Positions 44,732 through 56,082 of a stretch of DNA of 64,000 nucleotides are shown here, in pieces (within the stretch, counting starts at the first letter, position 1; each line of letters starts with the position of its first letter). Source of the stretch: a virus. The notes beneath the pieces are model-generated. The model saw nothing but the letters and a program-made list of their open reading frames with translations, was not told where the DNA came from and ran no database searches. The stretch lies in IMG/VR virus record IMGVR_UViG_3300042691_048368, positions 1 through 64,000 of that record. One strand, given 5' to 3'. The translations under genes were made by a program, and so were the position numbers.

Positions 44732-45562
44732 ATGAAGTGCAACTATAGATATTGTGGTAGAGAAATAAACTTCGGTAGACCAGATAGAAAGTTTTGTAAT
44801 AAAAACTGTAAAATAAAAGAAAATAATTTAATTAAAGAATTAAAATCACTGGATAACAAATCTATTAAGACTAAAGATTTTATAGAAAAATCAAAAGAAA
44901 TACATAATAATAAATATGGATATGAATTATCGATATATGTTAATTGTAGAACAAAAATTAAAATAATATGTCCGATACACGGTGTGTTCGAGCAAACCCC
45001 AAGTAATCATTTATATAATAAACAAGGATGTGATAAATGTGCTAGAGATGAACATAAACTTACTAAGCTATCTGATTCCAGAATAGATAATCTTAAAAGA
45101 GTCCATAATAATAAATATCTATATAATGATACATCCATTAATGAGGGATTTATAAATATAACTTGTCCAGATCATGGCGTCTTCACACAATATTTATATT
45201 TTCACGAATATGGACATGGATGTTCACAATGTAATTCCTATTCTAGAGGAGAAAATTACATAAAAAGATACCTTGACAAAAGAGGAATAAGATACCACAG
45301 GAATTTTATATTTGAGAATTGTAAAAATAAGAAAGGATTAAGATTTGATTTCTATCTATACAATGAAAATACTATTATTGAGTATCATGGAGAGCATCAT
45401 TTTATTGAAAATAAATATTTTGGAAATGCAAATCTAGAATATGTTAGAAAAAATGATGAAATCAAAAAAGAATATTGTTTATTGAACTCAATAAGACTAG
45501 TAAGGATACCATATTATGATTACAATAATATTGAGAGTATATTAAATAGTGTCATAGTTTAA
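44732..45562 (+). CDS. Homing endonuclease-like protein with DUF723-type repeats, 276 aa
   Basis: A small zinc finger is at the start (C3, C7, C22, C26). Two repeats follow, each with a CPxHGVF...Q...H...GCxxC pattern (residues about 80-105 and 145-170), the DUF723-like DNA-binding unit of phage homing enzymes. The C-terminus holds a compact PD-(D/E)xK/Vsr-like core, LRFDFYLYN ... IIEYHGEHHF, then a final strand LVRIPYYD. Such free-standing enzymes copy themselves into cognate alleles at conserved genes. It sits between the tail tube gene and the gp47-like gene and is more AT-rich, typical of a mobile insertion. Confidence 0.82.
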   Translation: MKCNYRYCGREINFGRPDRKFCNKNCKIKENNLIKELKSLDNKSIKTKDFIEKSKEIHNNKYGYELSIYVNCRTKIKIICPIHGVFEQTPSNHLYNKQGCDKCARDEHKLTKLSDSRIDNLKRVHNNKYLYNDTSINEGFINITCPDHGVFTQYLYFHEYGHGCSQCNSYSRGENYIKRYLDKRGIRYHRNFIFENCKNKKGLRFDFYLYNENTIIEYHGEHHFIENKYFGNANLEYVRKNDEIKKEYCLLNSIRLVRIPYYDYNNIESILNSVIV

Positions 45563-45618: not shown

Positions 45619-46743
45619 ATGTCAAAAATTCTAATTATTGGTGATACCCACTTAGGTCTTGGTTACCCGAATTCGATTGATAAATGGTTTAAAGTACACA
45701 GGGAATATTTTGAAGAATTTTTAATTCCTTTAGTTCGGAAAGAAATGACCGAAGATGATATTATAATCCACTGTGGAGATTTATTTGACAATCGGTCAGT
45801 GGTTCCGATTAATATACTCAATTACGCACAAGATCTCCTCGAAAAACTATCTTCTATATGTCCGGTGCATATACTAATTGGTAATCATGATTTGTACACT
45901 AAAGCCTCTAATGATGTGAATACTGTCAAATTATATAAGTATATACCAAACATTACCGTTTACGAAAAGCCTACCAAAATTGATTTTTGTGGAAAGTCAA
46001 TATTGATGTTACCTTGGGTTGAGAAAAAACAAGACCAAATTGACATACTAAAAAGATTTTCTGGTTGTGATTATCTTTTCTGTCATTCGGATTTGAACGG
46101 TGCAAAAATGCATTTGACCTCTGTTGCACATAAAAATCAAGATAAAATAGATGTGGAAGATTTTTCAGGTTACAAAAATGTATATTCTGGTCATATACAC
46201 ATCTTGCAAGTCACAAAAAATTTCACTTTTGTCGGTAATAATTTTGAAATGGATCGAAATGACATTAACAATCAAAAGGGAATTTTTATCTTAGATACTT
46301 TGGTTGACGAGGAGAGATTCATTCCTAATAATATTTCACCGAGATACAAAAAGATATACATAAGAACTCAAGAGGATATTGATCAATTAGAAAACACTTC
46401 GACAAAAGATTATATTGATCTTTTCATATCAAATTCATTGTTGATAAACAATAGGAAATTAAGAAGAAAGTTAGAGTTAATGTTGGAATCCGGTAACTTT
46501 GCTTCAGTTGACTACATCGATGATTTAGTTTTGGAAAAAAATGAAGAAACTAAATCTGTGATTGAAGAAATTACTGAAGAAGAATTAAACAATGGTGTGG
46601 TTCCATCTATTCAATTAGAATATACTGATTTAATTAGACAATACATTAATACTCAGAAATATGAAAGTGAGAAGATCAAAAATGGCGTCTTACAAGAGTT
46701 TAATGAAATTGCTAGAATATATGATGAGGGTTATTTAGAATAG
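45619..46743 (+). CDS. gp47/SbcD-like nuclease subunit, 374 aa
   Basis: I use ATG 45619; a GTG one codon earlier is in frame. Motifs of the Mre11/SbcD/T4 gp47 family are complete: GDTHLG (8-13), HCGDLFDNR (51-59), GNHDLY, FCHSDLNG and SGHIHILQ. gp47 with gp46 resects DNA ends for recombination and degrades host DNA. A gp46 (SbcC-like) gene is not in this window. The C-terminal 130 residues are charged and helical, the likely partner-binding part. The end overlaps a convergent tagged gene by 13 bp. Confidence 0.85.
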   Translation: MSKILIIGDTHLGLGYPNSIDKWFKVHREYFEEFLIPLVRKEMTEDDIIIHCGDLFDNRSVVPINILNYAQDLLEKLSSICPVHILIGNHDLYTKASNDVNTVKLYKYIPNITVYEKPTKIDFCGKSILMLPWVEKKQDQIDILKRFSGCDYLFCHSDLNGAKMHLTSVAHKNQDKIDVEDFSGYKNVYSGHIHILQVTKNFTFVGNNFEMDRNDINNQKGIFILDTLVDEERFIPNNISPRYKKIYIRTQEDIDQLENTSTKDYIDLFISNSLLINNRKLRRKLELMLESGNFASVDYIDDLVLEKNEETKSVIEEITEEELNNGVVPSIQLEYTDLIRQYINTQKYESEKIKNGVLQEFNEIARIYDEGYLE

Positions 46744-47033
46744 TTTGGTTTTCTTCCACTACCTTTAGATCCGGTACTCTCTGCTTTTCTTTTCCTAGCA
46801 ACCGCTGCTTTCTTTTGTTTCGCCGACATCTTAGCGGCAACCCTTACTTTTCTGCATTTGGGATATCCACCTTTACTTGTGTCAGACCTTCCGCATGGTG
46901 GATGAGACCCATCTTTATTTGTCTTGGAAATATCAACCCATTTTTCTTTGAACCATTTATCGAGTCCACCATGAGAACCCTTATATGATTTTTCCTCATG
47001 GATGAAATCTTCAAATAATAGTAGATGTTCCAT
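46731..47033 (-). CDS. Tagged small basic protein, DUF5872-like, 100 aa
   Basis: The start MEHLLLFEDFIHEEKSY is a clear tag with IHE|E site. The remainder, LDKWFKEKWVDIS, HPPCGRS, GGYPKCRKVRVA and then a Lys/Arg-rich tail (KQKKAAVARKRKAE), matches the small Cys-containing unit I know as DUF5872 from large phages and giant viruses. Two Cys may form a metal site or disulfide. It overlaps its upstream neighbour by one base. The basic tail could bind DNA in the head. Family recognition from memory; function unknown. Confidence 0.72.
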   Translation of the reverse strand: MEHLLLFEDFIHEEKSYKGSHGGLDKWFKEKWVDISKTNKDGSHPPCGRSDTSKGGYPKCRKVRVAAKMSAKQKKAAVARKRKAESTGSKGSGRKPNYSK

Positions 47034-47251
47034 TATCTTTTCTTAGACTTTTTAACTTTTGACTTTCTCCAAGTGCCACCTTTTTTCTTATATCTTTTTG
47101 CAGCAGCTCCATTAGCATAAGCTGATGGATAAACGTCATAGGTATTTTTTGCCCAAGCTTTACAGGAAGCCCATAAAGATGGGTTATTTGGCACGTTTTT
47201 CTCAACTACAAGTGATTCTTTAAAATCTTCGAAAGGTAATAAATGATTCAT
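47033..47251 (-). CDS. Tagged small basic protein with CKAWAK/YPSAYANG domain, 72 aa
   Basis: The start MNHLLPFEDFKESLVVEK is nearly the same as the tag of the next gene. The core NNPSLWASCKAWAKNTYDVY then PSAYANGAAAKRYKKKGG is a compact domain known to me from phage and giant-virus virion proteins, with conserved Trp, Cys and Tyr. A basic end follows (WRKSKVKKSKKR). It shares a base with the downstream gene. Packaging is inferred from the tag, DNA contact from the charge. Confidence 0.72.
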   Translation of the reverse strand: MNHLLPFEDFKESLVVEKNVPNNPSLWASCKAWAKNTYDVYPSAYANGAAAKRYKKKGGTWRKSKVKKSKKR

Positions 47252-47261
47252 AACATATATA

Positions 47262-47528
47262 TTATTTTATTTTAGTAACTTTTAATACTAAATCACCAGT
47301 GCCCTTTATTAGTCTGTGGTAGACCCCTTTAGGTACAAATATTTTTTCATCTATTTTTTTGGGTAATTCGTTATCAATTTGAAAGGTCCAATCTGTTGGA
47401 TGAGTTGGTTCTATTATTCTGTCCTCTCTGTCACGATGCCAATGTAAGTTTCCATTATCTACATTTTCATGGAATGTTCTTAAATAAGTCAAGTCATTCA
47501 ATTTGGATTCTTCAAATGGTAAAATCAT
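47262..47528 (-). CDS. Tagged cupin-like protein, 88 aa
   Basis: I start at ATG 47528 (MILPFEESKLND), 7 bp after the stop of the upstream gene; the longer frame from 47579 would run into it. The body has LHWHRDREDR (H-x-H of cupin motif 1) and IFVPKGVYHRLIKG (P-x-G-x-x-H of motif 2), so a small single-domain cupin is likely, with His residues for a metal. Its substrate is unknown. Third gene of the tagged cassette. Confidence 0.65.
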   Translation of the reverse strand: MILPFEESKLNDLTYLRTFHENVDNGNLHWHRDREDRIIEPTHPTDWTFQIDNELPKKIDEKIFVPKGVYHRLIKGTGDLVLKVTKIK

Positions 47529-47535
47529 AAATAAA

Positions 47536-48114
47536 TCACCAGAAACCTGGATATGTTTTTCCTCCCCAAAGATTTGCATATCTATTAGCCCTACAAGCCC
47601 AGTAACCTGGTTTGGTCTTATCCTTTTTCAAATGGCACTGATGTCTTGCAGCAAAAGCTTTTCTAGCTTTAGGATCAGAAACCTTTGCACTCAGACCACC
47701 TTTAGCATCACCAAAGTTTACTACTTTAACTTTTTTTGTCTTGGGATTAATCACATAAACTTTGTATTTTTTTGGACCCGAGCTTCTCATAGGTTTGCCT
47801 ATTGGAACTTTTTTTCCATGATATTCGGCTTCGTTCAAATCTTCGACTTCTTCTAATGGTAAGTCCAAAGGTACCATTTCACCTTCGTATTCTGCAAATT
47901 TACCAATATCAGTTGTTTCAAATAAAATTTTATCTATTCCCGATAATTCTACTTTATTAGTATCAAACAAAATTCTAGCTTCCTTTATTAGATCATAGAA
48001 CGAATTGGAACCAGGTCTGAACACATTTTCCAAAACGGGAAGGTTGTTATCGACATGATATTTTAGATTCTCACTGATTGGATGAAAATTATCGAATAGA
48101 TTAATATATTTCAT
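47536..48114 (-). CDS. Tagged protein with basic Cys domain, 192 aa
   Basis: The start MKYINLFDNFHPISENLK is tag-like with an ISE|N site. The C-terminal 75 residues (KYKVYVINPKTKKVKVV..., DPKARKAFAARHQCH, KTKPGYWACRANRYANLW) form a basic unit with two Cys that I know from other large-phage proteins. The middle is acidic and flexible. It is the first gene of the cassette 48114-46731 and is divergent from the giant baseplate gene. The tag and basic domain fit a packaged DNA-binding cargo. Confidence 0.72.
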   Translation of the reverse strand: MKYINLFDNFHPISENLKYHVDNNLPVLENVFRPGSNSFYDLIKEARILFDTNKVELSGIDKILFETTDIGKFAEYEGEMVPLDLPLEEVEDLNEAEYHGKKVPIGKPMRSSGPKKYKVYVINPKTKKVKVVNFGDAKGGLSAKVSDPKARKAFAARHQCHLKKDKTKPGYWACRANRYANLWGGKTYPGFW

Positions 48115-48170
48115 TGGAGTATGTTTTTTATTGTAGATATATATTATTTATTTTAGTATTAAAACTCTTC

Positions 48171-48204: not shown

Positions 48205-51200
48205 ATGCAATCACTTATATTTTTCAACAAAGAAGGGGACAATTTAAATTTTAGATACAACGAGGATGATGAAAGGTGGGAAGGTGATATGATTTTCCAC
48301 GCTAATAGTGATGACACTTTTAAGACAGCTGGTCTTTATATGTTTGAAAGAATACCTTCTTTTGAATATGAAAAACCTGGTGACCTTTTTTTACAGAAAT
48401 TCCAATTATTTAATGAATATAGATTCAACATAACGGGTTGTTCTTACTTCAATCGACCCGTTACAAGAGTTGAATTGCCAAATAATGATCAATTATTTTT
48501 CTCAAAATGGATTTACGGGAACAATTTTGAGAAAATGTTTCCAATAGGAACTCAAATAATGTTCGATAAAAAATACTTGGAATTTACAAATATAAATCAA
48601 TCATACACTGTAGTTAAAACGAAGAAAAATGGCATAATGATTATGTCAAATCTTGACAATAGAAGTTTCAACAGTAAATATGGTTCGGTAATTGAGGGGA
48701 CTGCGTCACTTGAAGGCATTTCAGTAAGTGGAGTTAATTCTATCGGAGTTTACAACTACATCGACGATCAATACAAAGATAATTTATCTTCTTGGTCTGA
48801 GCCAGATTTTTATGATAAGTATTATAATGGTAAAGTTTTGAACCTTTTTGGAACTGAACGAAACGATGGTATTTATACGGTGAGAAATTATTTGCTCAAT
48901 GATAAAGTTTATAAAAGATATGAGTTGGACGCTAAATCACTTACACAAAGTTATGATTTATTAATTGATATTTTATTAAAAACGGAATTGCCGACAGTTT
49001 ACACTGGAGGATTATATCTGACTGCGAGTAGGATTTATTTCACGGATGGTGTACCAAAGATTCTAAAGCCAGGTGTAGAATTTCACTTACCAAATGCTTC
49101 TATAAATACAAATTCATTAAAGATCCTAGATGTTGTCAAATTCGAAGGTATCAACAAATTAACTTATTTTGCTACCCAATCACAAGTTCTTTACGGAAAT
49201 TCTCTCTATGAATGTGTTTTGTCTCATTATTGGACAGCGACCTCATCAATTCTACCAGATAATAAAACTTATTGGGATGCTCCCACGTATTTATCAGTCA
49301 GCGGCATTTCGGATTATGAAGTTTTTCAATCTGCTGAAGTGCAGTTGACAAAAAATAGATTCACATATTCTTTTTCGTTTACACAAAGCATGCCTGTGAC
49401 GTTAGCGTCATCTGTGGAAAAATATAAAGAAGATTTTAAGTTTTTCTTATTGGATTATTATTTCGAGAACAAAAAACTTCATTTGGATCTTTTATATCCT
49501 AGTAATTATGTGGATGCTAAGATACTATTATCGTTAGATGGTGTTAATTATGAAAATAGAGCGGTCACAAAAAATATCTATGAACAGAATGTTGAAATAG
49601 AGGAGGTTTTATTGCCAGAGATCACTGAGAATATTTGTGAGAATTTTTCATACAATATAGTTTTTACAGATATAGATGAATTTGGAATAAGATTGACCAT
49701 TAATGGACAAGTATATTATCAAGAAGTTGAATTTATTTATGATTCTTTGAATGTTAATATGGAAAGAACCATAGATAAAACCCTTAGAAATTGGCTTACA
49801 ACTTGGTACATCGAATTATCGATGACAGGTATATATCCAAAATTGAAGTTTACCGGTAAAGATTATTCCTTCTACCTGAACACTATACAGCTAACAACTG
49901 AATATCCGAATGTTGAACTCACTTTTAGTGTTGAGGTTGGAACTACAGCAGACTTTTATCTCCAAAGAGCTCAAATTGTTTTTAATAATATTGGTTCTTA
50001 CTTTGTAGTCACAATCAATGATCGAAATTATGGTCAAAAATCGAGTTACTTTTCAAATGGTAAAGTTGATTTTGCCAGTTCTTTGAATGAGTGGGTAGAA
50101 ACATATGGTGATATATTAGAAGGTTATGGAATTTATGCTAAATCCGTACTATCGATGTTGACCTTTGACGTGAAGGAAATAGATACAAGATTTGAAGTTT
50201 CTGTAAATACCGGAGTATTCAGTCTACCTGGTAACGAAACATATTTCATAAAAAATCTCTTCAGAGGTCACTTAGGAGCATTTTTAACTTCAAATGAAAT
50301 AATATTGTCCGGACCTTCATATTCATTCGAGGATGAAAATTTTGCGACAGGACAACTTGTTGCTATTAATAACAGTAGCAGGCCTTGGAATAATCAAGAA
50401 TATAATATCGAATACTTAGGTCCGAAAGATCTTGTTTTGAGTTATCAGGGACCATTTTGGCCCACTACAGATCCATTGTGTAATATAGCACCATTTATAA
50501 CTATAGCTTTGAGTAATGGTTTTGGCGCTACAGGTTGTACACCCGCAGTATTGGCGAAACCCAATAATGGGGAATTTGGTCTTTTAGATTTTTCAGATGC
50601 TTTCAGTATTAGGTTTGGGGCTACCAATAGTTATGTGATTAACAAAAACTTCCCAATTAATGACGAGGCCAAATTTGTTGACTTGATATATCTAGGTTTG
50701 GTAAACAAGATCTATGTATTTGGTGAAAGGCTGACAGTGATAGATTCTGTGAGTGGTAGGGTCGAAACGGAAGTTAAGTTGCCTAATTTCACATCGGGCA
50801 TATCAATGACTTTCAACCCATATAATAATTATTTATATTGTCTCTCTACAGATAAAATATACCTTATAGATCCTCTATTTCCTAAATTGGATCATATTAT
50901 AAATCTTTCTCTGCCTGGTAAAAAATGTGTTGTGAATCCGAATAATGGTGATGTATATGTTGCATATAATTCAACAAAATTCGACATTTGGTATGATAAT
51001 AACTTCACATCAACACCATCAAAGTCCTATCCATCGGTACCTACAAATAAAAGATATTATAATTTTATTTATAATGCGTCTGAGAAGGACATTTATGTGT
51101 GTTCTGATGATGAGCTTTTGAGATTCGATGGTTCATCTCGTAATTTACAAGCCTCTATTTCGGTACCTGGTCTGAAAAATAATTTTTTATACGAACCAAT

Positions 51201-54200
51201 AAGGTCGTCAATATATCTATTTGACACCACAAGGATTTTAAATTTGAACGGCGGTGTAGTAACCCCATTGAATGCTCCAAATATTACAATATCTCCCTGG
51301 TTAGCTTCACCATCTGGTATAACAAACTCAACATTAAGAGATGTACATTTTGGATCTACTGCTTCTGGTTTTGTAGTTGGAGATAAAGGTTTGGTATTGA
51401 AAACAACTAGCGCTGGAGAAAACTGGGGTACACAATCAAGTGAAATAACAGAGAATTTAAGATCTGTATATTCCACAACATATAGCACTGTTTGGGCAGT
51501 TGGTGAGAAAAATAGGGTCATAAGATCACTAAATGGAGGATTGAATTGGCAGACCATCCTTGGACCCGCTGGACCTAATACGACGCTGAATAGTGTTAGA
51601 GTAATACAAAATAATTTAGTTTTAATTTGTTCGGATGATAGTAGGTTACACTTATGGAATGGCTCAGCATACCAAAACGTACCACTTAGTCAGAAACCAA
51701 AAGCTATTTGGGCCAATGATAATGGTAGTGTGTGTTTCATAGTAGGTGAAAATGGGTTGATTGTAAAATATAATGCTCAACTACTTACCCAATCGGTTCA
51801 AACAACCAAATCTAAATTATTATCTGCCCATTTCAAGGTTTCTGCAACATCAAATGTGATGGTAGTCGGAGGTGAGAATGGGTCACTATTATTTACAAGT
51901 AATGGCACTGATTGGTATACGAATTTTACTGGACTTACTACATCATCGATTAATTCAATTTATTTTGTACCCAATACAAATATAGGTTGGTTAGTTGGTG
52001 GAGATGGAATGATAAGGAAGACAACAAATAATGCTGTAACTTGGTCTAGACAAACATCACCAACTACAAATAATTTGAATTCTGTGAATTTTGCAACTTC
52101 TACATTTGGTATTGCGGTTGGAAATAATGGATCGATTTTGTTTACAGAAGATGGATCAGGTTGGAATGCTCATACAAATTTAACATCTCAAAACTGGACC
52201 ACATATAAATTAAACAGTGTTTATGTCTCAAATCCGCAAGTAAAAAATATAGTTGGTGACCTAGGTACCATTCTACGATCCGATGCAACAAGATTCAGAA
52301 GAGTGAGAATCGTATCTGTTATTGGTGTATTTGCGACACAATCTTATGGTTTATCTAATTTCATAGCAAATCAAACCTCTGCTGACACCAACGTTTGGGG
52401 AGGTGGAACTGGTGCTGTTTTCAATTTGTCTATTTCTTCGAGTGGTATCGTCACCATAAACTCATATGTAAATCGAGGTGTGAATTACGTTGGTGGGAAT
52501 AAGATTACTGTTAGTGGATTCAATCCTTCTTTTCCAAATGATTATATAGAATTCAACGTTGCTAGTACAATTACTGAATACTATACTGTACCTACCCCAT
52601 CTGGTATTGCTGCAAATGAGAATTTACTTGCAGTCCACTTCAGTTCGAATTATGGTTATGCTATAAGTGATTTTGGTAAAATTATAAGAACAGCTGATAC
52701 TGGACAAAGTTGGCAATTGATAATTACTCCAACTAATAGTAAATTATCTTCTGTATTCTTTATTAGTGTAACAATCGGTTGGGTAGGTGGAACCAATGGT
52801 AGGATTTGGAAAACGGTTGATTTTGGTAATAGTTGGGGATTACCAGTGACTGTTTCAACCTCTACAGGAGATATAACTTCGATATCTTTCAAAGATACAT
52901 CGAATGGTATTTGTTGTGATAGCAATGGTAGATTTTTCACTACTATAAATGGTGGTAGCAGCTGGTCACCTGTGGAGTTCAACTTTACTGATGTAAATTT
53001 CGTGAATGACACAACTGGATGGATTGTCGGTAATAACGGTATAATGTTAAAAACAACAGATGGTGGTAACAAATGGGATTATGTCTATACGGGTTTATCT
53101 GCAAGTTTGACATCTGTTGATTTTGCAGACACTACGGTTGGTTATCTTGTGGGTGAGAATGGAATAATTAGGAAATCAGAACAATCCGGTATAAATAATA
53201 GTTGGATCAGGCAAGATAAAGGATCAAGAAATTTCAATTCCATTTACATGTTAGACTCGAATGTTGGGTTTGTAGTTGGTGATAGTGGTGCTCTATATAA
53301 ATCAGAGATAGACCCACCATTTGTAAGAAACCTATTATTCAATAATTTAAAAAATGAAATAGTTTTGTCCACACCAGAGGGTATATCAGTTTTTGACTTG
53401 GAAGGGAACCAATTAGCCTTTGGTGAAACACCGGAATATGGTCCATTAGCTTTGAATCAATATGATGGTGACATATATCTTGCTTCTCAAAATACCCAAC
53501 AATTATTTGTGGTTGATACTGATAACTATAAAATAAAACATTCCGAAACATTTTTTGAAGGATCGATCAAAGAGGTTTTATATAATCCTGACCGACAGAG
53601 TATTTTTGCAATTATTCCCAATGATATAATCCAAATACAATCACTCGTTGAGGTACAAGTTATTTTAGCAACTAGTTTACAACAAAATACTTTATCAACT
53701 ATTGAAGTTGGAGAAAATAATTATGGCACATTAGATCCTAATTACCAAAAACATCCAGATATTTGGCTTAAAACAAGAGAATACATTAGAAGACCAAGGG
53801 AAAACTACAATGATGAACCTTTTGCGGATTTAATATTCAAATGGGAAGACGACCAAATACCTGAAATATTTTTATACGATTTTTCTGGAGAACAATTGCC
53901 AGTGGGTGGAATTTATGATTATACTGGAGAAAGACCTTTGCCAATAGTATCTTTGAATCGTAAGCCTAATACAAAACTTACCAGAGTAGCTTTACCGGAG
54001 TTCCAACAAACAATATTTGATGAGTTGACTTATACATTGGATCATGTTGATTCAGTGGTAGATTTTACTAATAAGCCAACACCTATTGAAGTTTTTATTG
54101 GCATGAATGGAACTAATGAGGGTGTTTTATCTTCTAGATTAAATCTTTATAAAAGAGAATCTATAAAGTTCACGGTTTATGCAAATGCTACAAATAGTGA

Positions 54201-56082
54201 TGTCTTATCATTCTCGATGGGAGTAAATGATGAAGATGGTCTATACGGTATGATTGCGTTTGATTTGAATTCCAAAACAAATTTCCGACAAGATGATGAT
54301 GGTGTCACAAGGGGTTTGAAACCCGGTCAGTTATTAAAAATAACAATAAAAGACGATAGTAATCAGAAAAACAAATATATTTCACTAAACAGTGGAATAA
54401 CTGTTAAGATACTTAAAGTTTTTACAAAATATTTGGTTGTGACGTTTATAGATAGGTATTTTACAAATGAGTTTACTCAAGTCGATGATTATCCAACAAA
54501 TGGTTCAACTACATACTTGACGGTTAGTTTTGAAGTAGTAGATAAATTGATAGGTACTTTTGAGATAAAGTCACAAACTGAAATAGAAGATGTGAGATTT
54601 AAAATTGAGTTAGCTAACTCTGGTCATTTGGTAGATCCATATGACACTTTTATTTTCAAGACATATGATATCAATGAACAAGGTATAGATTGGAATTTCC
54701 TAAACAAAAAGAGAAAAGAAATGCTCTTAGTCAGGGATCAGATTTTTCCTTATATTGGATCTTATAAAGCTATTATAAACTCAATAAATTTCTTCGGGTA
54801 CAATGATTTAGAATTATACGAATACTATAGAAATATCAATATAAGTTCACCCGACTTTTATAAATTGTTCAAAGTAGAAATACCTGACATCTTTGATAAC
54901 TCAGTTGAGGGATGGAAAGAAAACGATTTTATAAAACACACTTTGCCGAACCCGAATTTCGAAGAGACAAATTTATTCAACTTAACATATCGTATAACTG
55001 ACAAAGAAGGTACGAATGTTCTGTTGTATTCATTAGCCGAAGTAATTATGAAACTGCAAGGTTTGAAAATGTGGTTGGAAAGAAAAGTAATTCCGATAAC
55101 TCATAGAATATTAGATATTACAGGAAGAGCTGACTTTGTTGGAGTTGATACAATACAACATAGAAATTATGATACACGTATAGTAAACATAAAACAATCC
55201 TTTTCCCCTATAGATTTCAGTTTGAATGAGGCATATTTGATGCCAATCAATAGTGGATCCACTGTTTATACATGTCAAGTCGATTTTTATATGTCACTTG
55301 GTTTGACACAATCTGAAGTACCGGACTATTTCACTGTTAGAATAAAGACTTACAAAACTTATAAAGAATGGGATCCGTTTTTCACTTACAAATTGGGAGA
55401 TAGAGTAACATACTACGACAAAATATATGAATCTGTCATAGAGAGTAATAAACTAAAAAACCCTTTAAAATATAGTGGAATTTCTTCTTGGAATGGAAAT
55501 GTTAATTATCTATTAGGCCAATTTGTTGAATATAAAAGAGAAATTTATCAATATATCGGTACTCAATCATCATTCACTATTTTTGGAACAGTTTCTACAG
55601 TAAGTCCCTTCTTGGATTTGCAGAATAGAAAATCTTTCTCAAGTTGGTTCTATATGACTGAGTGGCGTTTGACAGATTTAGTACCTGTGCAAAATCTTTT
55701 AGAATATCGTTTAGTCGCTACATATAGTTTGGAAGATAATAAACCAAAAATTGGTGAAAGAAAAAAACCTATAAAGGCTGGTCATTCTTACAATTTTACG
55801 ATTGATGCTAATATTGATCCTTTCATTTATATAGAAGTGAGTTCCGATAATGGTTACGGTCAAACTTATACAACCAAAAAAACTTATGAGATAAGAGGAC
55901 TGAATGATCTTTCTGCTAATAAAACAGAGGGTGATCCGATAGGACCATTTGTACCTGTCAAGACACATAAGACATTAGTGGGCCTAGCTAGTTTACCACC
56001 TGATGAAAGGATTGGTGCACCAGGAGGTGGTCCAGAACCTGGTGGCCCTGATAGACCGGGGGGTAGTGGTGGTGGTGGTTAA
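48205..56082 (+). CDS. Giant baseplate/tail protein with beta-propellers, 2625 aa
   Basis: Residues 1-850 are beta-rich with a carbohydrate-binding-like module (SQVLYGNSLYEC...YW) near 330. Residues about 860-1030 look like an NHL/YVTN propeller. From about 1040 to 1720 there are many Ycf48-like units (patterns VGxxGxIxKTxxGGxxW and xTGWxVGxxG), split by an inserted beta domain near 1370-1460. The region 2170-2330 (FPYIGSYKAIINSINFFGYN ... YEYYRNINI) resembles the baseplate wedge gp7-type proteins of large phages. A second binding-like module (WDPFFTYKLGDRVTYYDKIY) and a Gly/Pro tail end the chain. It probably builds the baseplate periphery and presents a carbohydrate-binding surface. The gene ends at a strong terminator. 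Confidence 0.75.
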   Translation: MQSLIFFNKEGDNLNFRYNEDDERWEGDMIFHANSDDTFKTAGLYMFERIPSFEYEKPGDLFLQKFQLFNEYRFNITGCSYFNRPVTRVELPNNDQLFFSKWIYGNNFEKMFPIGTQIMFDKKYLEFTNINQSYTVVKTKKNGIMIMSNLDNRSFNSKYGSVIEGTASLEGISVSGVNSIGVYNYIDDQYKDNLSSWSEPDFYDKYYNGKVLNLFGTERNDGIYTVRNYLLNDKVYKRYELDAKSLTQSYDLLIDILLKTELPTVYTGGLYLTASRIYFTDGVPKILKPGVEFHLPNASINTNSLKILDVVKFEGINKLTYFATQSQVLYGNSLYECVLSHYWTATSSILPDNKTYWDAPTYLSVSGISDYEVFQSAEVQLTKNRFTYSFSFTQSMPVTLASSVEKYKEDFKFFLLDYYFENKKLHLDLLYPSNYVDAKILLSLDGVNYENRAVTKNIYEQNVEIEEVLLPEITENICENFSYNIVFTDIDEFGIRLTINGQVYYQEVEFIYDSLNVNMERTIDKTLRNWLTTWYIELSMTGIYPKLKFTGKDYSFYLNTIQLTTEYPNVELTFSVEVGTTADFYLQRAQIVFNNIGSYFVVTINDRNYGQKSSYFSNGKVDFASSLNEWVETYGDILEGYGIYAKSVLSMLTFDVKEIDTRFEVSVNTGVFSLPGNETYFIKNLFRGHLGAFLTSNEIILSGPSYSFEDENFATGQLVAINNSSRPWNNQEYNIEYLGPKDLVLSYQGPFWPTTDPLCNIAPFITIALSNGFGATGCTPAVLAKPNNGEFGLLDFSDAFSIRFGATNSYVINKNFPINDEAKFVDLIYLGLVNKIYVFGERLTVIDSVSGRVETEVKLPNFTSGISMTFNPYNNYLYCLSTDKIYLIDPLFPKLDHIINLSLPGKKCVVNPNNGDVYVAYNSTKFDIWYDNNFTSTPSKSYPSVPTNKRYYNFIYNASEKDIYVCSDDELLRFDGSSRNLQASISVPGLKNNFLYEPIRSSIYLFDTTRILNLNGGVVTPLNAPNITISPWLASPSGITNSTLRDVHFGSTASGFVVGDKGLVLKTTSAGENWGTQSSEITENLRSVYSTTYSTVWAVGEKNRVIRSLNGGLNWQTILGPAGPNTTLNSVRVIQNNLVLICSDDSRLHLWNGSAYQNVPLSQKPKAIWANDNGSVCFIVGENGLIVKYNAQLLTQSVQTTKSKLLSAHFKVSATSNVMVVGGENGSLLFTSNGTDWYTNFTGLTTSSINSIYFVPNTNIGWLVGGDGMIRKTTNNAVTWSRQTSPTTNNLNSVNFATSTFGIAVGNNGSILFTEDGSGWNAHTNLTSQNWTTYKLNSVYVSNPQVKNIVGDLGTILRSDATRFRRVRIVSVIGVFATQSYGLSNFIANQTSADTNVWGGGTGAVFNLSISSSGIVTINSYVNRGVNYVGGNKITVSGFNPSFPNDYIEFNVASTITEYYTVPTPSGIAANENLLAVHFSSNYGYAISDFGKIIRTADTGQSWQLIITPTNSKLSSVFFISVTIGWVGGTNGRIWKTVDFGNSWGLPVTVSTSTGDITSISFKDTSNGICCDSNGRFFTTINGGSSWSPVEFNFTDVNFVNDTTGWIVGNNGIMLKTTDGGNKWDYVYTGLSASLTSVDFADTTVGYLVGENGIIRKSEQSGINNSWIRQDKGSRNFNSIYMLDSNVGFVVGDSGALYKSEIDPPFVRNLLFNNLKNEIVLSTPEGISVFDLEGNQLAFGETPEYGPLALNQYDGDIYLASQNTQQLFVVDTDNYKIKHSETFFEGSIKEVLYNPDRQSIFAIIPNDIIQIQSLVEVQVILATSLQQNTLSTIEVGENNYGTLDPNYQKHPDIWLKTREYIRRPRENYNDEPFADLIFKWEDDQIPEIFLYDFSGEQLPVGGIYDYTGERPLPIVSLNRKPNTKLTRVALPEFQQTIFDELTYTLDHVDSVVDFTNKPTPIEVFIGMNGTNEGVLSSRLNLYKRESIKFTVYANATNSDVLSFSMGVNDEDGLYGMIAFDLNSKTNFRQDDDGVTRGLKPGQLLKITIKDDSNQKNKYISLNSGITVKILKVFTKYLVVTFIDRYFTNEFTQVDDYPTNGSTTYLTVSFEVVDKLIGTFEIKSQTEIEDVRFKIELANSGHLVDPYDTFIFKTYDINEQGIDWNFLNKKRKEMLLVRDQIFPYIGSYKAIINSINFFGYNDLELYEYYRNINISSPDFYKLFKVEIPDIFDNSVEGWKENDFIKHTLPNPNFEETNLFNLTYRITDKEGTNVLLYSLAEVIMKLQGLKMWLERKVIPITHRILDITGRADFVGVDTIQHRNYDTRIVNIKQSFSPIDFSLNEAYLMPINSGSTVYTCQVDFYMSLGLTQSEVPDYFTVRIKTYKTYKEWDPFFTYKLGDRVTYYDKIYESVIESNKLKNPLKYSGISSWNGNVNYLLGQFVEYKREIYQYIGTQSSFTIFGTVSTVSPFLDLQNRKSFSSWFYMTEWRLTDLVPVQNLLEYRLVATYSLEDNKPKIGERKKPIKAGHSYNFTIDANIDPFIYIEVSSDNGYGQTYTTKKTYEIRGLNDLSANKTEGDPIGPFVPVKTHKTLVGLASLPPDERIGAPGGGPEPGGPDRPGGSGGGG

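Follow-up and report, generated by a model that had tools for sequence, protein, structure and literature searches.

In a T4-like phage, four minus-strand genes, here named P1 to P4, probably form an operon for internal (cargo) proteins, three of which would be packaged by means of an N-terminal tag, cleaved and ejected. The genes were found in a window of 64,000 bases, representing bases 1-64000 of a 94,997-base IMG/VR record (~95 kb) from a T4-like virus of bacteria. Gene structure, the enrichment of tags and cut sites, the head genes, a variable interval and domains shared with virion proteins can be read from the sequence; packaging, cleavage, ejection and target are what we infer. P1 to P4 lie between a gene for a fibre-like protein and a gene for an SbcD-like nuclease:

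45619..46743, plus strand: SbcD-like nuclease (phrog_100, E 4e-57); anchors the variable interval on the right
46731..47033, minus strand: P4, 100 aa, tagged and basic; resembles the C-terminal half of DUF5872 (WFKEKWVDI...PPCGR...YPKC; phrog_23735, E 3e-16)
47033..47251, minus strand: P3, 72 aa, tagged and basic; resembles the N-terminal half of DUF5872 (YPSAYANG domain; phrog_27331)
47262..47528, minus strand: P2, 88 aa, small, cupin-like and untagged; conserved partner of P1 (start set from orthologs)
47536..48114, minus strand: P1, 192 aa, tagged; first gene of the operon (ORF; 43-row alignment; phrog_7595, E 2e-10)
48205..56082, plus strand: giant fibre-like protein, 2625 aa, left-hand anchor of the variable interval

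The first-pass annotation had described four adjacent minus-strand genes with almost no spacing, two of them sharing a base and three of them basic. Coordinates, strand and packing were correct: the gaps measured 7 bp between P1 and P2 and 10 bp between P2 and P3, and P3 and P4 have one base in common (TAATG). The net charge was +8 for P1, +12 for P3 and +14 for P4, and -1 for P2. Alignment of orthologs placed the true start of P2 at the ATG at 47528 (MILPFEES...). The SbcD-like gene is convergent with P4 and overlaps its end by 13 bp. A gene for an HNH/homing-type endonuclease adjoins the locus (window 44732-45562; phrog_559, E 1e-48) and may promote gene exchange in its neighbourhood. A PHROG search with the first 1000 aa of the giant fibre-like protein gave no match; by eye, the protein contains many repeats that look like beta-propeller (YCF48-like) units.

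A promoter-like element was located upstream of two of the four genes:

48139..48150, minus strand: TAATATAT element upstream of P1
47258..47266, minus strand: TAATATAT element upstream of P3

None was found before P2 or P4, as would be expected if P1-P2 and P3-P4 are separate units. In the window and the remainder of the record, 38 of the 51 upstream intergenic regions contained ATATATA (1.5 expected), with distance peaks at 2-10 and 17-33 nt ahead of the start. The element is probably a phage promoter.

The tag was defined by a fixed pattern, hydrophobic-x-x-aromatic-x-x-aromatic close to the protein start. In the cassette it was present as follows, the slash marking the predicted cut:

48070..48114, minus strand: P1 tag MKYINLFDNFHPISE, cut ISE/N (FDNFHPISE/N)
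47201..47251, minus strand: P3 tag MNHLLPFEDFKESLVVE, cut VVE/K
46995..47033, minus strand: P4 tag MEHLLLFEDFIHE, cut FEDFIHE/E; N-terminal tag sequence MEHLLLFEDFIHEE

A tag on all four genes had been proposed initially. This holds for P1, P3 and P4; P2 lacks it and so do its orthologs, none of the 26 in the variable interval matching the pattern. With a pattern chosen after inspection of the data and a gene start caller that prefers tagged starts, 10 of the 60 window genes were tagged, compared with 1.57 expected from shuffled N-termini (maximum 6 of 200). Tagged genes made up 24% of the genes in loci of the same lineage and 5.8% in other loci, these controls being called identically. About 15 tagged genes are distributed across the 95-kb record; the tag is thus a genome-wide feature and not restricted to the P1-P4 locus.

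Hydrophobic or aromatic key residues are carried by tag positions 4, 7 and usually also 10. In the internal protein IPIII of T4, residues 4 and 7 determine targeting and residues 8 and 10 processing, and the protease gp21 cleaves after L/I-x-E (PMC9026906). The T4 proteins start with MKTYQEFIAEA (IPII, IPIII) or MKTFKEF (IPI), and the P4 tag shows the exact order aromatic-x-x-aromatic-[IL]-x-E, like YQEFIAE of IPIII. An [IL]xE site was present at most 9 residues behind the tag in 56 of 113 tagged proteins (8.5 expected), and it peaked most strongly at the spacing seen in T4 (0.20 vs a background of 0.011). Among the genes of the lineage, counts put the density of the complete unit aromatic-x-x-aromatic-[IL]-x-E at N-termini at approximately 13 times its density in other positions. 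The site of P3 in the window, VVE, is not a strict [IL]xE; most relatives carry IVE or ILE, and [IL]xE/K is kept directly before the P3 domain in most tagged orthologs. A T4-type N-terminus was also found in the cytidylyltransferase T4-GC190 of cyanophage S-SM1, which starts with MKKFSAFLNEAE (MKKFSAFLNEA) and was detected in purified virions (PMC3037559). It differs from the proteins studied here in being a long enzyme, and the cyanophage version is without P1.

A T4-type head module is encoded in the remainder of the 95-kb record:

75457-77592: T4-type terminase
86773-88503: Portal_T4, E 1e-57
89463-91577 (L243 11464-13578): prohead protease-scaffold fusion, 704 aa, Peptidase_S77; phrog_207, E 2e-30
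91656-93419: Gp23 capsid protein, E 4e-28

The prohead protease cleared the Pfam cut-off in just 1 of the 16 records of the lineage, although for this record its PHROGs match is strong. The scaffold part of the fusion contained ten units of the type Y-S-E-Y-[LI]-A-E (0.15 in shuffles), which are protease-site motifs as well, and 8-11 copies were found in 7/7 relatives, where about 0.1 would be expected. In 7/7 the capsid protein starts with the propeptide WM[SA]EYAE[FY]HSINENAY, which is close to the P1 tag. The cut site of P1, ISE/N, shows the same pattern as the end of the capsid propeptide of this phage, YAEFHSINE/N; T4 gp23 has FGSFLTE/A at the equivalent place. The T4-type portal, protease and capsid module, together with the processing sites behind the tags, make the analogy to the T4 internal proteins stronger.

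According to the mechanism we propose, P1, P3 and P4 would be synthesised bearing a capsid-targeting sequence at the N-terminus (aromatic-x-x-aromatic followed by I/L-x-E). Since the tag resembles the scaffold repeat unit and the end of the capsid propeptide, it may be a borrowed copy of either, letting the tagged proteins join the prohead scaffold core and be trimmed there. The gp21-type protease, itself fused to the scaffold, would then cut off the tag, and the small basic proteins would stay with the DNA until their ejection into the host as infection begins. In the host they would probably counter defences or bind nucleic acid, by analogy with the T4 internal proteins. Anti-defence is our leading guess because the latter inhibit type IV restriction enzymes (PMC12373910). 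Optional tagged genes would be swapped among relatives around a stable P1-P2 pair.

The interval was compared in 27 loci with both anchors, replicate copies of one phage included. P1 was present in all 27 and P2 in almost all of them. Between the gene for the giant fibre and the SbcD gene, P3-P4 are optional, as are about 40 further gene clusters, of which many are tagged. The inserted clusters included a tagged SET-domain protein (E 5e-12) and enzymes, for example an AAA-ATPase-like protein that bears the tag. Variation among relatives, as anticipated in the first-pass annotation, was therefore observed, the same anchors enclosing differing sets of mostly tagged small genes. Its picture of an interchangeable internal-protein locus like that of T4 fits P3-P4 and the roughly 40 clusters; P1 and P2 are a stable core. 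The identity to the nearest relative was 84% for P1 and 58% for P2, followed by an inserted gene, 73% for P3 and 93% for P4, and these jumps along the cassette suggest mosaic exchange.

Further genes in these and related loci were noted. The SET domain occurred as a stand-alone tagged protein (L174 7798-8136) and inside a crAss-like protein also bearing DUF5872 and DUF5754 (L011 4495-9024). One tagged cluster, here named c7 (LYHGNRKGDFPP...IFLTSNLEFAKDFA), was found at L088 4478-5059, L173 7065-7640 and L207 6539-7129; its assignment as an ADP-ribosyltransferase, reminiscent of T4 Alt, was made by eye only and was dropped, with no match in Pfam and PHROG. Genes that by eye are NAMPT-like and NMN adenylyltransferase-like lie near P3-P4 (L084 4694-7073, L085 5750-9286) and possibly serve NAD repair. 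A tagged gene at 79675-80286 of the record (L243 1676-2287), with LLIVDVQKSF after the tag, was by eye an isochorismatase/nicotinamidase and had no Pfam match.

Such a gene content could also belong to an ordinary accessory region, with host-takeover genes that are expressed in the cell and nothing packaged. The N-terminal motif would then be a habit of the lineage which, for example, favours translation or docks proteins. The spread of tagged genes across the whole record and the enzymes among the putative cargo, such as the AAA-ATPase-like protein, are in line with this. However, the motif contains a protease site at the T4 spacing, it matches both scaffold and capsid propeptide, and the S-SM1 virion protein has the same kind of N-terminus. 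We consider an accessory region of this type unlikely.

P1 is composed of an N-terminal ENVFRPGS module, which was identified by no Pfam family, and a C-terminal GYWACRANRY domain that is DUF5754-like, with a weak resemblance to DUF5754. P2 had been described as a small cupin. P2 itself matched no cupin model; two of its relatives matched Cupin_2 (best E 1.3e-4), and the tentative label derives from these relatives. P2 was never used as a query in the IMG/VR scans that collected the loci, and yet 43 of the 49 non-redundant loci have it close to P1, which argues for a core pair. P2 would be the untagged partner of P1, and both form a stable core rather than interchangeable modules. In the relative of 464 kb, P1 and P2 are separated by the gene for a very long repetitive protein (L163 6649-12576, L002 715-5715).

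The P1-P2 locus adjoins tail genes and not head genes, a point against the cargo reading. P1 and P2 might be structural or assembly proteins linked to tail or baseplate, with P3-P4 having merely landed alongside. The start of P1 adjoins the giant fibre gene here, in Flavobacterium phage immuto P1 comes after genes for tail spikes, and the pair is conserved without this tag in other phages (immuto, pT24), where it may therefore have another role. Yet the tag and cut site of P1 are of the same kind as the capsid propeptide of the lineage. Moreover, the Methylophilales phage Melnitz carries the P1 module at the end of ORF18, fused to a cargo-type enzyme, a virion-type cytidylyltransferase that is an ortholog (44%) of S-SM1 T4-GC190, near replication genes and not tail genes. 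The P1 domains also co-occur with DUF5872 and SET in crAss-like proteins of the cargo type. A tail-linked role of P1-P2 in this lineage seems very improbable to us.

P3 and P4 matched opposite halves of the DUF5872 profile (PF19197), P3 at positions 1-51 and P4 at 42-113. This arrangement suggests the DUF5872-type domain named in the first-pass annotation; the scores, each for one half, were 18.9 bits (P3) and 22.7 bits (P4) and lay below the curated cut-off of 27.5, though family members do match (at E<=0.1, 42 of 45 for P3 and 41 of 50 for P4). Among 49 non-redundant P3 loci, both domains were in a single ORF in 16 and within 3 kb in 44. Profile searches of the PDB with P1-P4 brought up no credible match (best E 0.009), and PDB fold searches with AlphaFold models of P1 (pLDDT 80, pTM 0.42) and P4 (75, 0.61) gave no significant match, so we assign no fold. 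A Cren7-like DNA binder was discarded as a candidate for P1, the fold matches having E values above 2.

In other T4-like phages, P3/P4 proteins adjoin gp21, gp22 and gp23 (e.g. L129; Gp23 E 7e-74, S77 E 3e-24). Gp23-adjacent P3/P4 proteins were seen to start with IIRKVIRE or IIKKVLLEE (L059 5755-6198, L071 6722-7540, L138 7233-7661). This type of start is possibly the packaging tag of that lineage; as a simple pattern it caught only 6 of 330 genes and remains a lead. Of 20 further records, 13 gave a match to the S77 protease, namely the T4-like ones; it was not detected in any of five crAss-like records or in HTVC027P.

The crAss-like phages carry DUF5872, DUF5754 and SET domains as insertions in one large protein. 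Its homolog in Cellulophaga phage phi4:1, gp40, is a structural protein annotated 'experimental MS/MS'. The structural proteins of phi17:2 contained no P1-P4 domains, gp041, the homolog of the large protein, being without inserts; the link to crAss-like virions therefore rests on the family membership of the host protein. Freshwater relatives of the gp40-type proteins of Crassvirales share the three domains with the present lineage, the difference being that there they are fused within proteins of 700-1500 aa. In the algal giant virus Chrysochromulina parva virus, DUF5872 and DUF5754 are both annotated (PMC12085832), a likeness to the phage locus at the level of annotation.

Compared with T4, the tagged proteins of the locus share with IPI, IPII, IPIII and Alt a short tag at the N-terminus, in which positions 4 and 7 are the key ones, and the (I/L)xE site. 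Small basic cargo, a variable gene set and T4 head genes in the record are further common features. The cargo differs in having no sequence similarity to the T4 internal proteins, and the tag is usually one turn longer (4, 7, 10). Further differences are the approximately 15 tagged genes per 95 kb, the fusion of protease and scaffold, and the position of the locus, flanked by the giant fibre gene on one side and SbcD on the other. No IP family was among the Pfam or PHROG matches of P1-P4 when homology of the mature domains to IPI, IPII and IPIII was considered. Judged by all its sequence-level features, the locus resembles the internal-protein system of T4 in its workings, yet its proteins do not belong to the T4 IP families, no homology having been detected.

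The polyvalent phage proteins (Iyer et al. 2017) reportedly combine many effector-like domains that are shared, shuffled and delivered with the DNA. The proteins described here differ from these, with mostly one domain per protein and an own tag on each. Tentatively, and with somewhat more doubt than belief, we suggest that a common pool of small ejected-cargo domains (the DUF5872 halves, the P1/DUF5754 module and SET) circulates between unrelated head types. These might occur in T4-like phages as separate proteins with a lineage-specific address copied from scaffold or propeptide and in crAss-like phages as inserts in large virion proteins, two of the families being encoded by the algal giant virus too. 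If so, cargo would move between phage lineages by swapping the address and not the cargo.

If the internal-protein reading is true, packaging could be read off the tag in uncultured T4-like phages, every tagged gene would encode a predicted ejected protein, and candidate anti-defence proteins could be obtained from sequence alone. Virion-cargo functions would be suggested for DUF5872 and DUF5754, which at present are without any. Finally, a tag that copies the scaffold repeat would provide a testable capsid-targeting mechanism of the T4 type.
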